Source: Methanomassiliicoccaceae archaeon (GTDB lineage: Archaea; Thermoplasmatota; Thermoplasmata; Methanomassiliicoccales; Methanomethylophilaceae). From it: DNA of 54,514 nt. The notes beneath the pieces were generated by a model that was given only the letters and a program-made list of their open reading frames with translations, searched no databases and was not told the origin of the DNA. Each line of letters opens with the position of its first letter. Position 1 is the first letter of the stretch. The stretch is taken from the NCBI GenBank assembly GCA_003557905.1, contig PWNH01000005.1, forward strand, positions 1-54,514. Direction: 5' to 3'. Below are positions 39,836 through 53,434 of the stretch, piece by piece. A program made the translations under genes and the position numbers.

Positions 39836-39861
39836 TTACTATCCTCCACCCACATCGGAGC

Positions 39862-39881
39862 TCGTTTATTGGAATAAACGA
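39862..39881. promoter_or_regulatory. Perfect 9-bp inverted repeat upstream of mtmC
   Basis: TCGTTTATT-GG-AATAAACGA, 27 bp upstream of the mtmC start codon. Confidence 0.65.
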
Positions 39882-40484
39882 CTCAGACGCGGTTGAGAAT
39901 ATAACCGGAACAATCTTATTTAATTATAGCGAAATATAGTTTACACTACTATAACTAGACAGGGACTAGGCCTCGAATGACCCAAATGGTCCAACGACTC
40001 TGTCTCCTACATTCGTTATGTAATCGCGATTATCCGATAAATACATGTCTATGAATAACAGAAAAGGAAGTTGGATGACTCGTACAGCCAACAAATCATA
40101 ATTTTTGGTTTGGATCTTCTTTTATTAAAATCAGAGAAGGATTTGTAATTAGATGTCCAGTAATTTTTAAACTGTGTTTTTTTTATAGATTTCCGAATAT
40201 TCGAATAGGATTACATATTTCGTATTTAATACCATATTTGGATGGATGGATAATCCATTGATTTAACACAATATATTATATACAACCATTTTAGCAAATG
40301 TGTCTGAAATAGTTAAGTTTATATATAAAATTACTAAAGACCGTTTACTCAACAGTTATCTTTAAATATCAATTAACGAAATCTGAAATTTGATAAAGAT
40401 GAATTGGGTCTTAATTGCTGCAATTTATACCGTGTTCGTTTCGGCACGACCTCCTGCAAAGATTTGCCCATTCTTTTCAACTAT

Positions 40485-40554
40485 GAGGGGCGATCTGGGA
40501 TCGCTAGGCCTCTACAGCCAAAGCAGCCGGGTTCGATTCCCGGGTCCCTCGCCA
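40485..40554 (+). tRNA. pylT: tRNA-Pyl (CUA anticodon) with encoded CCA
   Basis: 70 nt: GAGGGGC-GATC-TGG-GATC-GCTAGGC-CTCTACA-GCCAAAGC-AG-CCGGG-TTCGATT-CCCGG-GTCCCTC-G-CCA; anticodon CTA, no linker before the D-stem, tiny D-loop, interrupted anticodon stem; immediately upstream of pylS. Confidence 0.95.
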
Positions 40555-48590: not shown

Positions 48591-48695
48591 CTATTTCTCT
48601 TTCGGAAGTAATGGGTTTCCACCAGCCCATAGGCTGGTGTAAGATTCTTTGGCTGACGTTGAGCTTGATATTCCTTGACGGGTCGACTCAAACAT
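48591..48695 (-). CDS. Candidate 34-aa sORF between the hydantoinase-like gene and mtbA, ending in TAG
   Basis: GGAGGGATCAA-ATG RBS context; MFESTRQGISSSTSAKESYTSLWAGGNPLLPKEK-TAG; contains a perfect hairpin. Confidence 0.35.
   Translation of the reverse strand: MFESTRQGISSSTSAKESYTSLWAGGNPLLPKEK
48620..48639 (-). promoter_or_regulatory. Perfect 8-bp hairpin upstream of mtbA
   Basis: CACCAGCC-CATA-GGCTGGTG (plus strand), about 41 nt upstream of the mtbA start. Confidence 0.6.
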
Positions 48696-50712
48696 TTGAT
48701 CCCTCCGTTGTGTGAGAATCTCCGTTATCCGGTTTACCCATCGCTGTGGCCACAACTTTGGTTCCGATGTAAAGTCCCTTCCCGTTTCCGTAGCCGAAGT
48801 CACCGAACTCGTCCTCGAACGAAATTTCGGCTTCTGGATTGTTAGCTCCTGCCGATAAGGCCATCTCCAACACCTTGGACCGAACATAGTCCAATGAGAA
48901 ATCCTTGGCAGCGGATAACGTGGGAAAATCCTTACGTCCCTCTAAGGTGAATACCATACAGGGACAATCCTCACTGGCACTCAATCCCTTCTTCGGCTTG
49001 ATCATCATCTCCAGCCTCTCTACGACGCTGGATGCGATGGCCCCGATGGCGTTCCCGACCTCGGAGTGCTCGGGCAGCGGCATACTCGTACGGAATCTAT
49101 CCGCAACATCCGGGAGGTATGCCCCTGCAGGAGCCCCTATGCCGATTATCGGTTTATCGAGATGCAGCACCATGGCGAAATCCTTCCCTTTGTGGCCTTT
49201 GGAAGCCATGTCGACGAATCTTGTCGCCAGCTTGCATTCTGGAATCAGTCCGGAATCATCAGCGGTCAATTTCATGAGTGCTGATTCAGCAATCTTGTCT
49301 ATCGCCGCCGAACGGACCATATTACAGAAATCCTCCTCGGTGATTCCCAATAACTTCGCCTGTATCCGGGCGCCTGTCTTTGAGGCCGAGGAGTCATATT
49401 TGACGTAGAGCCCCAACGAATGCATGGCATCTGTGGGTGTGAAACCTATCCGGGAAATCAAACCCATCCCCTCAAGATGGCTTATACTGTAGTTATGGGG
49501 GTCGAAACCGGTATGTAGTCCCAGGTCGAAGATGTTGCATGGACCCTTCTCGAGGAAATTCAATATTCTATCATCGATCTCGGTCAGACTCGCCTTAAAG
49601 GTTCTTTTGTTCAAAACTATGAACTCAGCCAGTTGAGGGATCTTATCAGGGTTGTAGGCCCTGCCTTTGAGCCGGGGGGGGTTTCGTTCAATCTCCTCTA
49701 AAGCATCCATCAGTCCGGGGTACTTGGGAACCCCGATACATAGCGGCGTTACACGTAGAGATGAGAGTCTGATGTCATTCTTGGAAACGATTACCCGGCT
49801 GTCGCCCCCGATACCGGACGTCATCACGTCCACAGCCCTGACACGGGTCCTCCAACCTCCGATCATGGCGCCCTCGTCATCAACGGACGGCATTCCTTCA
49901 CGGAGGATGCCGATATCGGTGGTGGTGCCGCCGACATCGATCGGCATAGCGGAGTCCTTGCCGGTGAGGTATCTTGCACCGACCATACTGGCAGCAGGTC
50001 CTGAAAGGACTGTTTCGATCGGTCTTTTCAAAGCCATTGCTTCACTCATGAAGGATCCGTCACCCTTCACCACCATGAGCGGGGCATTCACATCGGCTGA
50101 ATGCAACACCTGTTTGACCGCGACCATCAGCTCTTTTATGGTCGGTATCAATCGTGCATTGAGTACGGCGGTCACAGCCCGCTCATAGAATCCAAGTTGT
50201 GACGACAGTTCGTGTCCACAGACTACGGGAAGGCCGCTCAGTTCGTCAATTATGTCCCGAGCAGAAATCTCGTGTTCTGGATTCCTGACGCTAAGCAGGG
50301 CAGATACTGCGAATGCTTCCACATCATCCTTCACCTTCTCAACGAATGCTCTAACCGCCTTATAATCGAAAACTGCCTGGGGAGAGCCGTTGAGATAATG
50401 CCCTCCCTCCACCTCGATAAGGTGTTCAACGGGCATCTTCTCACGGCTTTCCATGCCAATTAGTATCAGGGCTACCCTTCCACCCTTACCTTCAACTATG
50501 GAGTTTGTTGCCAATGTGGATGATAATGAGACAAGCCCTACTTCCTTGAACAGTGATTGATTCAAAGATGAGAGGGATTCCTGAATCCCTATGACAAGGT
50601 TCTCCCTAGTCGTCAATGCCTTAGCCTTGCTAAGCACATTGCCAGAGGAGAGGTCCAAAATCACCGAGTCAGTATAGGTTCCTCCGGTGTCGATTCCCAA
50701 ACCTATGGTCAT
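48688..50712 (-). CDS. Hydantoinase/oxoprolinase family ASKHA protein
   Basis: 'GLGIDTGGTYTDSVILD', 'SSTLATNSIVEGKGGRVALI', 'MPIDVGGTTTDIGILREG', 'GIGAPAGAYLPDVADRF'. Confidence 0.9.
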   Translation of the reverse strand: MTIGLGIDTGGTYTDSVILDLSSGNVLSKAKALTTRENLVIGIQESLSSLNQSLFKEVGLVSLSSTLATNSIVEGKGGRVALILIGMESREKMPVEHLIEVEGGHYLNGSPQAVFDYKAVRAFVEKVKDDVEAFAVSALLSVRNPEHEISARDIIDELSGLPVVCGHELSSQLGFYERAVTAVLNARLIPTIKELMVAVKQVLHSADVNAPLMVVKGDGSFMSEAMALKRPIETVLSGPAASMVGARYLTGKDSAMPIDVGGTTTDIGILREGMPSVDDEGAMIGGWRTRVRAVDVMTSGIGGDSRVIVSKNDIRLSSLRVTPLCIGVPKYPGLMDALEEIERNPPRLKGRAYNPDKIPQLAEFIVLNKRTFKASLTEIDDRILNFLEKGPCNIFDLGLHTGFDPHNYSISHLEGMGLISRIGFTPTDAMHSLGLYVKYDSSASKTGARIQAKLLGITEEDFCNMVRSAAIDKIAESALMKLTADDSGLIPECKLATRFVDMASKGHKGKDFAMVLHLDKPIIGIGAPAGAYLPDVADRFRTSMPLPEHSEVGNAIGAIASSVVERLEMMIKPKKGLSASEDCPCMVFTLEGRKDFPTLSAAKDFSLDYVRSKVLEMALSAGANNPEAEISFEDEFGDFGYGNGKGLYIGTKVVATAMGKPDNGDSHTTEGSNV

Positions 50713-50876: not shown

Positions 50877-52283
50877 TCAAGACTTAAGCTGCCTCCTGAA
50901 TTTTTCACAGCAGTTTATCTTGATATCCAGGACCTTCTCGATGTTCATCTTTGCCGCTATGCCTTTGGGGGCTCCGGCAACTGAGGTGATGACACCGATA
51001 CCCAATTCCTCCCTGATGTCCCTCATTATGTGCTCATCACTGAGGTCAGCAGGGGTTACACCGAGCTTCTTGGCCACAAATTCCTTCGCCTTCGAAATCT
51101 TCATGTTCTTGGCGAACTCCATCCTCATGACGAGGTCTCCGCCAGCGCGGATGCCGCTCATGCCCGAGGTCATCAAGTGTGCGATCGGCATACCCATAGG
51201 GTCGCCGACCCCAACCTATATGCCGTCGACGCCAGCGATCTCCACCATCGCCTTGCTAGCGTGGGAGACGGCGTCAATGGTTGGTGTCTCGAACATCGGT
51301 ATTCCGCCCACGCCCATACCCATGTTCACATGGACAGGTATGGGGGATTCCTTGACGGATTCCTTGACGAAGGTCACGGCACGGGCAAGATTCCAGGCAC
51401 TGGACTGAGCCGTGCTGGTGTTGATTGCGGGCCCGAAGATGTTGGAGCCGGCCTTGGCCATAAGTTTTGCCTGCTGGTGAGGCCAAAGGCCTGCTAGCAC
51501 CTGACCGTCATATGCTATCTCGCCGTGTAGGCCGAGGACCATCTCCCCTGCCATCCCAGTCTCGATATACATCTCAGGGAACTCTTTACGCAGGGCCTCG
51601 ACGGCCCTTAGAACTCCGAAAAGGTCTCCATCGCCCGCAGCACCGCAGGTGTCGAAATTGGCTCCATCGGATCCAGCCTTCATCATCTTCTGCATTATCC
51701 ATATCATGTCCCGGGTCAGATGGTCTGCTGAATCCTCGGTAGCTTTCTGAGCCTCTTTGATTTTGAAGGCCTTCATAAGGTCTCCAGGATTGTCGAAGGG
51801 TCCATCGGGACGGTAGTACAGACCCATGTTGGGCATGGCACCATAGACCACAGGAACTATCATGTTCTGCTGCACAACCTCCATCGATTGCATCTCCTGG
51901 GCAATGACCGGCTTCACAGGTTTGTAACTGTAGTCGATATGCCCAAGCTCCATGGAGTCGGCACCGAAGGCGCGCTCATGCATCATCATTCCGATCAGAC
52001 GGCTGGAAGGTATCCCCACGCCGCTGTTGCCCTGATCGCCGTCGATGCGTAGAGTTCCAATGTCATGGGTGACAGGAACCTCCATGCCACTCTTGACCCC
52101 GACCATACGGCCAGGGATCATCAGAATCTCCATCAATTCATCAATCTCGTTCGAGTTGAGAACCGGTATGTCTGCAAGATCGGCCGCATCCTCGGAACCT
52201 GCTACGATATCCTCGTAGATTTGATCCTTGGATAGGAAGATCCTCTTACCGTCTCCCATCCTCAATGAGTATTCTTTCACCAT
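50877..52283 (-). CDS. mtbB: Dimethylamine methyltransferase MtbB with in-frame pyrrolysine (UAG at 51216-51218)
   Basis: Track ORFs 51216..52283 and 50877..51197 share one frame separated by a TAG; joined '...[35 protein letters not shown]...' matches remembered Methanosarcina MtbB; stop TGA. Confidence 0.97.
51199..51211 (-). promoter_or_regulatory. Hairpin 4 nt downstream of the mtbB UAG
   Basis: GGGTC-GGC-GACCC on minus strand (perfect 5-bp stem, 3-nt loop). Confidence 0.4.
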
Positions 52284-52309: not shown

Positions 52310-52957
52310 TCAGATTCCCATCAGCTTATGGACGAGTTTGACCGCCTCACTAGCGTTCTCACTGTATCCATCGGCACCGATCTTATCCGCGTAGGCTTGT
52401 GTGACTGGTGCACCGCCGATGATGACCATGACATCCTTCCGCATCCCTTTCTCGATAAGGGTCTCAATGACCTCTTTCTGAGTCTGCATGGATGTGGTCA
52501 TCAGCGCTGAAAGACCGAGCACGTCAGCATTCCCCTCCTTAACCGCATCCAGGAAGGTTGCGGTCGGAACATCTCTACCAACATCGTTGACTTCGTATCC
52601 AGCACATTGCAGCATGGTCGAGACTATCGATTTCCCGATGTCATGGACATCGCCCTCGACGGTTCCCATGACAACATGACCGCGGTTTCCACCGCTCATG
52701 GTCGCTGCGAGATCCCCCTCGATCAACGCCACGCCTGAAGTCATCGCATTGGCGGCGACCATCACGTGGGGCAGGAAGAGTTTCCCGCGCTCGAATCTGA
52801 TACCCACCTCATGCATACCTTCTGAGAGGGCATCGATAATCTCTTGAGGCGTAATGACGCCTCGGGCAGCTTCAACATTGCTCACGGTCTTGTCCAAATC
52901 GCATTCCACGATGGCATCGACCAAGTTCTTACGTAGGGTTTCCACTTGTCCGTTCAT
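52310..52957 (-). CDS. mtbC: Dimethylamine corrinoid protein MtbC
   Basis: '[30 protein letters not shown]' B12-binding motif, '[26 protein letters not shown]'; upstream of mtbB. Confidence 0.93.
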
Positions 52958-53067
52958 GCAAGTCCTCCTTCATCATCCCAAAAAAAGGGTGCGTCGCGTT
53001 CAAACGTCGATGCACCACGGGCATGATGGCAGAGGGCTTGGATGTCGATCTATATTTTGTAGCTCAT
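52954..53067 (-). other. Candidate amber-interrupted leader ORF of mtbC
   Basis: aggaggaaggag-ATG AGC TAC AAA ATA TAG ATC GAC ... CTT GCA TGA; frame is open after the TAG for 31 codons and its TGA overlaps the mtbC ATG (ATGA). Confidence 0.4.
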
Positions 53068-53434
53068 CTCCTTCCTCCTATCATCAATCCAAGATCCATG
53101 CATTTGGCATGAACTCGACTTAAAGTGTAACCTGTTAGTCATTATTTAATCCTTATGAATAATCCAGTATGTGAATCGGAATCACTTGGAAATCGCACCA
53201 AAAATTATACTCAGTGACTTATGAAGTTTGTTTTGAATCAGTAATTTCAATAAAGAATATTTCGTAGAACTCAGTTCATTCAAAATGATGTGATAACTTA
53301 ATTCATTCTATTGGAATTTTGAATCCTGGACCTTAGCGGAGTCAGTATTTACAATAATTCAATAATAATATCGATTGGCTTGTGAAAACCAATATAAGTA
53401 AAAGTTGGAAAGGGTTTAGGGATTTCAGACCTGG

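Follow-up and report, generated by a model that had tools for sequence, protein, structure and literature searches.

The window, by which we mean the whole 54,514-nucleotide stretch of DNA that was analyzed, carries genes in the order mtbC, mtbB, a hydantoinase-like protein and an MtbA/MtaA-type methyltransferase. The genome from which it comes, that of an uncultured methanogen, is referred to as G000, and a second genome of the same genus, with which it is compared throughout, as G002 (record SKGM01000029, Candidatus Methanomethylophilaceae archaeon CSBr16_145). The first three of these genes are located as follows, with mtbC and mtbB confirmed by NCBIfam models:

52310-52957, minus strand: mtbC, dimethylamine corrinoid protein (NF041607, E 1.2e-89, with a score of 299 bits that falls under the model's own cut-off of 350; TIGR02370 above its cut-off)
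50877-52283, minus strand: mtbB, dimethylamine methyltransferase, with one in-frame TAG (pyrrolysine) (TIGR02368, E 2.5e-253)
48688-50712, minus strand: hydantoinase/oxoprolinase-family protein with an ATPase domain (Hydant_A_N, Hydantoinase_A), found in G002 at L039 8793-10883

The hydantoinase-like protein, which lies between mtbB and the mtbA-like gene, is possibly a corrinoid reactivation factor. The machinery for pyrrolysine (Pyl) is present in the window as well, with pylS, pylB, pylC and pylD named from sequence and order rather than by family search. A tRNA-Pyl with a CTA anticodon lies at about 40483-40553 on the plus strand; it was missed by ARAGORN, and at its site Rfam gave only sub-threshold tRNA-Sec and mascRNA matches.

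An earlier note, made from the sequence of this DNA, had described an amber-interrupted leader open reading frame (ORF) directly upstream of mtbC and suggested that it couples UAG decoding to mtbC translation. The leader region contains the following features:

53126-53150, minus strand: promoter module ATTAAATA-N11-GTTACA, a TATA-like box with a downstream hexamer
53068-53079, minus strand: Shine-Dalgarno (SD) sequence of the leader ORF, aggaggaaggag, whose G002 counterpart is gggaggcagggg
53050-53067, minus strand: leader ORF before the switch, ATG AGC TAC AAA ATA TAG (MSYKI-amber)
52954-53049, minus strand: readthrough part of the leader ORF, 31 codons plus TGA, as read in the sequence

The note's description of the ribosome binding site and the codons that follow it is correct to the base, with ATG AGC TAC AAA ATA at 53067-53053 and the TAG at 53052-53050. 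Its 31 sense codons after the TAG are also there as claimed, followed by a TGA (52956-52954) that overlaps the mtbC ATG (52957-52955). Absent from the note was a strong SD belonging to mtbC itself, AAGGAGGA, at 52970-52963. The leader frame is open upstream too, as far as an ATG at 53142 that lies inside the promoter and is probably not used. Two features of the leader are ordinary when taken singly. The note had cautioned that 31 open codons are unremarkable, and indeed 34% of shuffles were equally open. Likewise, the TAG codon alone proves nothing, because TAG is the ordinary stop of approximately 13 to 16% of ORFs of at least 200 aa in the two genomes. In Methanomassiliicoccales genomes surveyed earlier, amber made up at most 11% of stops (PMC3941956).

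A close mtbC was found in only two of the six genomes of the genus, namely G000 and G002, whose mtbC proteins are 90% identical. The comparison is thus one between two species of one genus, made on incomplete assemblies of which one is 67% complete. When we ran the comparison of mtbC upstream regions that the note had suggested, the leader SD, start, TAG and readthrough frame were all kept in G002 despite diverged surroundings. There, gatgatgggaggcagggg is followed by ATG GCC CAC AGG ATA TAG and by a readthrough frame of 25 codons, which ends in a TAA directly upstream of the mtbC SD. The block from SD to TAG (SD, ATG, four codons ending in ATA, and TAG) is identical at 28 of 36 nt between G000 and G002, compared to just 41 of 76 nt from the TAG to the mtbC SD. 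With its SD and ATG kept in both species, the mtbC leader has a ribosome binding site of its own. The exact ATGA overlap, on which the note had leaned as a main support, turned out not to be essential, because the G002 mtbC leader ends 11 nt before the gene start. The sole indel between TAG and gene start is one of 3 nt, both in this pair and in the pair of mttB leaders described below.

The peptide encoded after the TAG was considered as a functional product and rejected. Only 1 of its first 12 residues is conserved in mtbC (by eye), and in neither the mtbC nor the mttB leader pair do the changes after the TAG show a codon-position bias or a third-position excess. Given this lack of bias, the leader peptide itself is probably unimportant, and the simplest reading of these alignments is that translating the stretch would matter, not what is made from it.

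The note had also proposed looking for conservation across the Methanomassiliicoccales, but in the genomes searched the leader is confined to one genus and is not spread through the order. A search of 148 genomes of the order with the 36-nt block gave two matches only, in G000 and G002. A covariance model run over the order recovered the two known leaders at E 3e-33 and 4e-31, with the rest at E 0.015 to 0.08, which is chance level; one weak full-length match, in G129, was set aside as it sits in unrelated sequence. A scan of genome contigs returned the G002 record only, and viral contigs gave no match. Extending the mtbB search to 392 genomes of the phylum turned up no further genome with mtbB beyond the order. 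Outside the genus, the closest mtbB (80%) is carried by G134, whose mtbC leader is missing because its sequence begins inside mtbC. Among the other genera examined that have mtbC or mttB, the amber leader is absent from all.

According to the earlier note, a ribosome that stops at the TAG leaves about 100 nt unprotected. By our folding this stretch is more than bare RNA, as it is predicted to form a conserved hairpin in which the mtbC SD is concealed:

52959-53040, minus strand: conserved hairpin over the mtbC SD, starting about 10 nt after the TAG, supported by folding z scores and covariation
53031-53035, minus strand: anti-SD CCTCT in the 5' arm, pairing with GGAGG at 52968-52964 and found in the same alignment columns in G002
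52964-52968, minus strand: mtbC SD core GGAGG in the 3' arm

In each species the 90-odd nt after the TAG fold as a single long hairpin with the mtbC SD paired (z of -4.9 in G000 and -3.2 in G002), and the computed probability that this SD is unpaired is 0.002 and 0.003, respectively. The longer G002 fold also pairs the leader ATG. In a structure-blind MAFFT alignment, 26 pairs of the two separately computed minimum-energy structures share columns, and RNAalifold gave 31 consensus pairs, 7 changed on both sides and none broken. When the 28 pairs of the G000 hairpin were read in G002, we counted 6 double changes, 5 single changes, 15 unchanged pairs and 2 broken ones. As few broken pairs were obtained in 19 of 20,000 trials with bases redrawn in the same columns and in 0 of 20,000 with random columns, both null models resting on one species pair. 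Shuffled spacers closed the SD as fully and at as low an energy in 1 of 2000 and 4 of 2000 cases. An SD unpaired at 0.01 or less is not rare in itself, being found before 5 of 98 and 14 of 125 SD-led genes (5 to 11%).

We then computed how the position of a ribosome bears on this structure, by folding the leaders with pairing forbidden in a footprint that reaches from 15 nt before the A-site codon to 12 nt past it, a calculation that describes equilibrium and not kinetics. With the TAG in the A site, the mtbC SD stays closed (unpaired 0.001/0.003 in the two mtbC leaders). Two codons past the TAG the values are 0.20/0.15, at three codons 0.32/0.73, and at four codons 0.88/0.81. In G000 the SD can close again with a single ribosome in the middle of the hairpin and is fully open once that ribosome approaches the end of it. 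The G002 SD is accessible over most of the first half, and again when the end is reached. In this model, ribosome position alters the accessibility of the mtbC SD: a ribosome terminating at the TAG would halt just short of the helix, and a ribosome reading through the TAG would disrupt it.

The idea of a UAG-coupled leader gained an independent second case, in both genomes, before the other amber gene mttB. In G000 (L073), the mttB leader ends in GTT TTC GGC ATA TAG, after which come 30 codons and a TGA overlapping the mttB ATG; its start would be a TTG, or else an ATG too near its SD. In G002 (L039), ATG CAT CTG GTA CCG ATC ATA TAG is followed by 31 codons and again by a TGA overlapping the mttB ATG. 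Across 230 upstream regions of methylamine genes, taken order-wide, SD-led and TAG-interrupted leaders that end at the gene start were these four only; TGA and TAA controls in the same scan gave scattered matches, several of them with more than one stop. The distance from TAG to gene start is 95, 92, 95 and 92 nt in the four leaders. Both mttB leaders share ATCCTCCT, with a UCCUCC anti-SD 33 nt after the TAG that sits in a short conserved stem, which could present it as a loop to the mttB SD. Pairing of SD with anti-SD is not the main state of the mttB leaders in nested folding, and their overall folding energies are ordinary; we therefore put forward an mttB lock as a proposal, possibly in the form of a pseudoknot.

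All four leader TAGs are preceded by ATA. The same codon precedes every enzyme TAG examined in the two genomes (mtbB and mttB in G000 and G002, and mtmB in G000), and order-wide it stands before 53 of 127 enzyme TAGs of mtbB, mtmB and mttB, compared to 2.5% of codons in the genes of the window. These counts fit leader TAGs that share the decoding context of true Pyl codons, and ATA before enzyme TAGs may reflect either a decoding context effect or a protein constraint. The promoter module lies 83, 82 and 75 nt upstream of the leader starts of G000 mtbC, G000 mttB and G002 mttB, and a search allowing up to two mismatches in six genomes of the genus found it nowhere beyond those three sites. From the usual archaeal spacing, transcription of the mtbC leader is predicted to start near 53120. 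In G002 the mtbC leader comes after mttB-mttC, on their 3' side, and its transcription may start at the mttB promoter.

To gauge the background, we scanned 1.35 Mb of the two genomes, in which the whole architecture precedes approximately 0.5 to 1% of 895 SD-led genes; among mtbC and mttB of the two species it is found 4 times out of 4. The readthrough frame is open in all four leaders, for which the single chances are 0.23 to 0.47. Elsewhere the scan returned four other TAG loci, about ten TAA loci and one TGA locus. Of the TAG loci, L089:5581 was rejected as it precedes an ORF that has no Pfam match and looks spurious, and the remainder were rejected because they lack ATA-TAG and occur in one genome only.

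Several other observations on methylamine genes and amber codons were made along the way. Order-wide, the commonest codon before the mttB enzyme TAG is ATG. Upstream of mtmC, a stretch of about 55 nt (39957-40010, minus strand) is conserved in G002, where it also lies upstream of mtmC (L153), and reads taggagacagagtcgttggac...gtccctgtct; the ends of this element can pair (AGACAG/CTGTCT), it has no Rfam match, and it may be tRNA-like or a small RNA. Of 21 mtmC leaders compared, those of G000 (39836-39930) and G002 (L153) have the most tightly closed SDs (unpaired 0.012 and 0.007). An amber leader ORF is absent before mtmC in both genomes, and another kind of control may act there. Finally, two long minus-strand ORFs are split by an in-frame TAG, one in L089 (550 aa, then 560 aa) and one in L105 (164 aa, then 574 aa), which may encode additional Pyl proteins, be neighboring frames that have fused, or have arisen by chance.

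Taken together, the conserved leader, the hairpin hiding the SD and the mttB case support the coupling of UAG decoding to mtbC translation that the earlier note had suggested, as far as sequence comparison and folding can speak to it. We consider it likely that the leader is a Pyl-decoding sensor that controls mtbC translation by ribosome-driven unfolding, a control that probably extends to mtbB through the operon. In the presence of charged tRNA-Pyl, the ribosome would decode the UAG, enter the hairpin within a few codons, free the mtbC SD and end on or beside the mtbC start, so that mtbC would be translated. Without Pyl-tRNA, a release factor would end translation at the UAG with the leading edge of the ribosome short of the helix; the hairpin would stay closed and mtbC untranslated. 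We infer the ON-with-pyrrolysine direction. For mttB, the leader is of the same kind and a closed structure is hinted at. Nearly as likely, in our estimate, is a regulon of two operons in one genus, in which leader UAGs sense pyrrolysyl-tRNA and thereby lock or unlock translation of Pyl-dependent methyltransferase operons. Coupling of the unfolding type and NTGA overlaps are established, and coupling is known from Haloferax volcanii as well (PMC12548453). Pyl insertion itself is thought to be plain competition with the release factor, with no dedicated signal (PMC9499178).

A different account would keep the hairpin, which is the best-supported element, and take the TAG as nothing more than the codon that ends a short leader ORF, with temperature, salt, a protein, a small RNA or a stalling peptide opening the structure. 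TAG does serve as a stop in this genus, and in other genera mtbC is preceded by SD-led short ORFs with a TGA at or just before the start (L058 and L065, with GTG/TTG start; L020 and L030; example peptides are MSKKRILEASL and VTEKSPSNRMELSFKR). Since those leaders may end in TGA, leader ORFs need not involve amber. Such an account is nevertheless unlikely in our view: in footprint folding a ribosome ending at the TAG leaves the helix untouched in both species, the frame after the TAG is open through the hairpin in all four leaders, and the ATA-TAG context and the restriction to two amber-gene operons would have to be coincidence.

Two further explanations strike us as very improbable, and to the same degree. 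In the first, the hairpin and seven T of G000 would terminate transcription unless readthrough ribosomes intervene. A GC-rich stem is indeed followed directly by CTTTTTTT (52987-52980) in G000, but the corresponding position of G002 reads GGTTTATC. What the two species share is thus the pairing of the SD and not the U-run; an intrinsic terminator was rejected on this ground. In the second, ATATAG, which each of the four leaders carries at much the same distance from its gene, would be a TATA box and the leader ORF would lie upstream of the transcript. An mRNA starting about 25 nt downstream would lose the anti-SD arm of the conserved pairing, which makes ATATAG an unlikely TATA box; moreover, a better TATA, ATTAAATA, lies in the genus-unique module 75 to 83 nt upstream of three leaders, and the conserved leader SD and start would be left without a reason.

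We give still less credence to the idea that the hairpin is no lock on the SD but acts in the manner of PYLIS, raising readthrough so that a functional small Pyl peptide is made. Its start, about 10 nt past the UAG, would suit such an element, but the hairpin runs through the mtbC SD, and the peptide is not conserved and shows no codon-position bias. PYLIS models gave no match to the leaders, with only the coding TAG of mttB matching RF02510, and an Rfam search for riboswitches and other curated families at the mtbC leader gave just two chance-level matches far below gathering scores, neither overlapping the leader. PYLIS has moreover been found dispensable for Pyl insertion (PMC9499178). Chance is just as hard to credit: although an open frame, a TAG, an ATGA and a closed SD are each common singly, they come together before mtbC and mttB of both species and are joined there by covariation, the ATA-TAG context and a shared promoter.

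If the leader does act as a Pyl-decoding sensor, a leader UAG that tests decoding would be a direct answer to how cells with an ambiguous UAG time the production of Pyl enzymes. The signals to which leader ORFs respond would come to include a stop codon that is decoded as the 22nd amino acid. The mtbC leader would rank among the few archaeal examples of leader-ORF translational control, as a riboregulator that takes as its input the working state of an expanded genetic code. Tools for genetic-code expansion could also use it as a natural gate that can be tuned.

The note's statement that no such element is known held up in a literature search in which subscription journals were thinly covered, and which found no Pyl leader, amber leader or uORF of this kind. 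The logic of the proposed switch is known from leader-peptide attenuators, and the event sensed is not described in the literature searched. Bacterial attenuators of the erm and cat type share with it an SD-led leader ORF, a hairpin that hides an SD and an opening decided by ribosome position. They are opened by antibiotic stalling, whereas here the choice would lie between termination and amber decoding, the signal would be charged tRNA-Pyl and the host is an archaeon. In trp-type attenuators, too, a leader ORF reads the availability of one charged tRNA, but those act on transcription and register the shortage of a standard tRNA by stalling; here stop-codon release would act on translation initiation, and the T-run is not conserved. 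Release factor 2 (prfB) controls its own synthesis by frameshifting at a UGA inside its own gene, thereby sensing the release factor. There, as proposed here, an early in-frame stop codon acts as sensor through competition at that codon; unlike in prfB, the amber is placed in a leader ORF distinct from the gene, and what it would sense is tRNA-Pyl. PYLIS (Rfam RF02510 for mttB) resembles the leader hairpin in that an RNA fold comes soon after a UAG that is, or in the leader would be, decoded as Pyl, but it sits inside enzyme genes, whereas the leader hairpin takes in the SD of the next gene and matches no PYLIS model. In the coupling of adjacent genes, too, an upstream ribosome opens a structure that covers an SD and terminates where the next gene begins (PMC12548453); in the mtbC leader, unlike in usual coupling, the upstream ORF encodes a non-conserved peptide, and the coupling would be conditional on decoding of the UAG.
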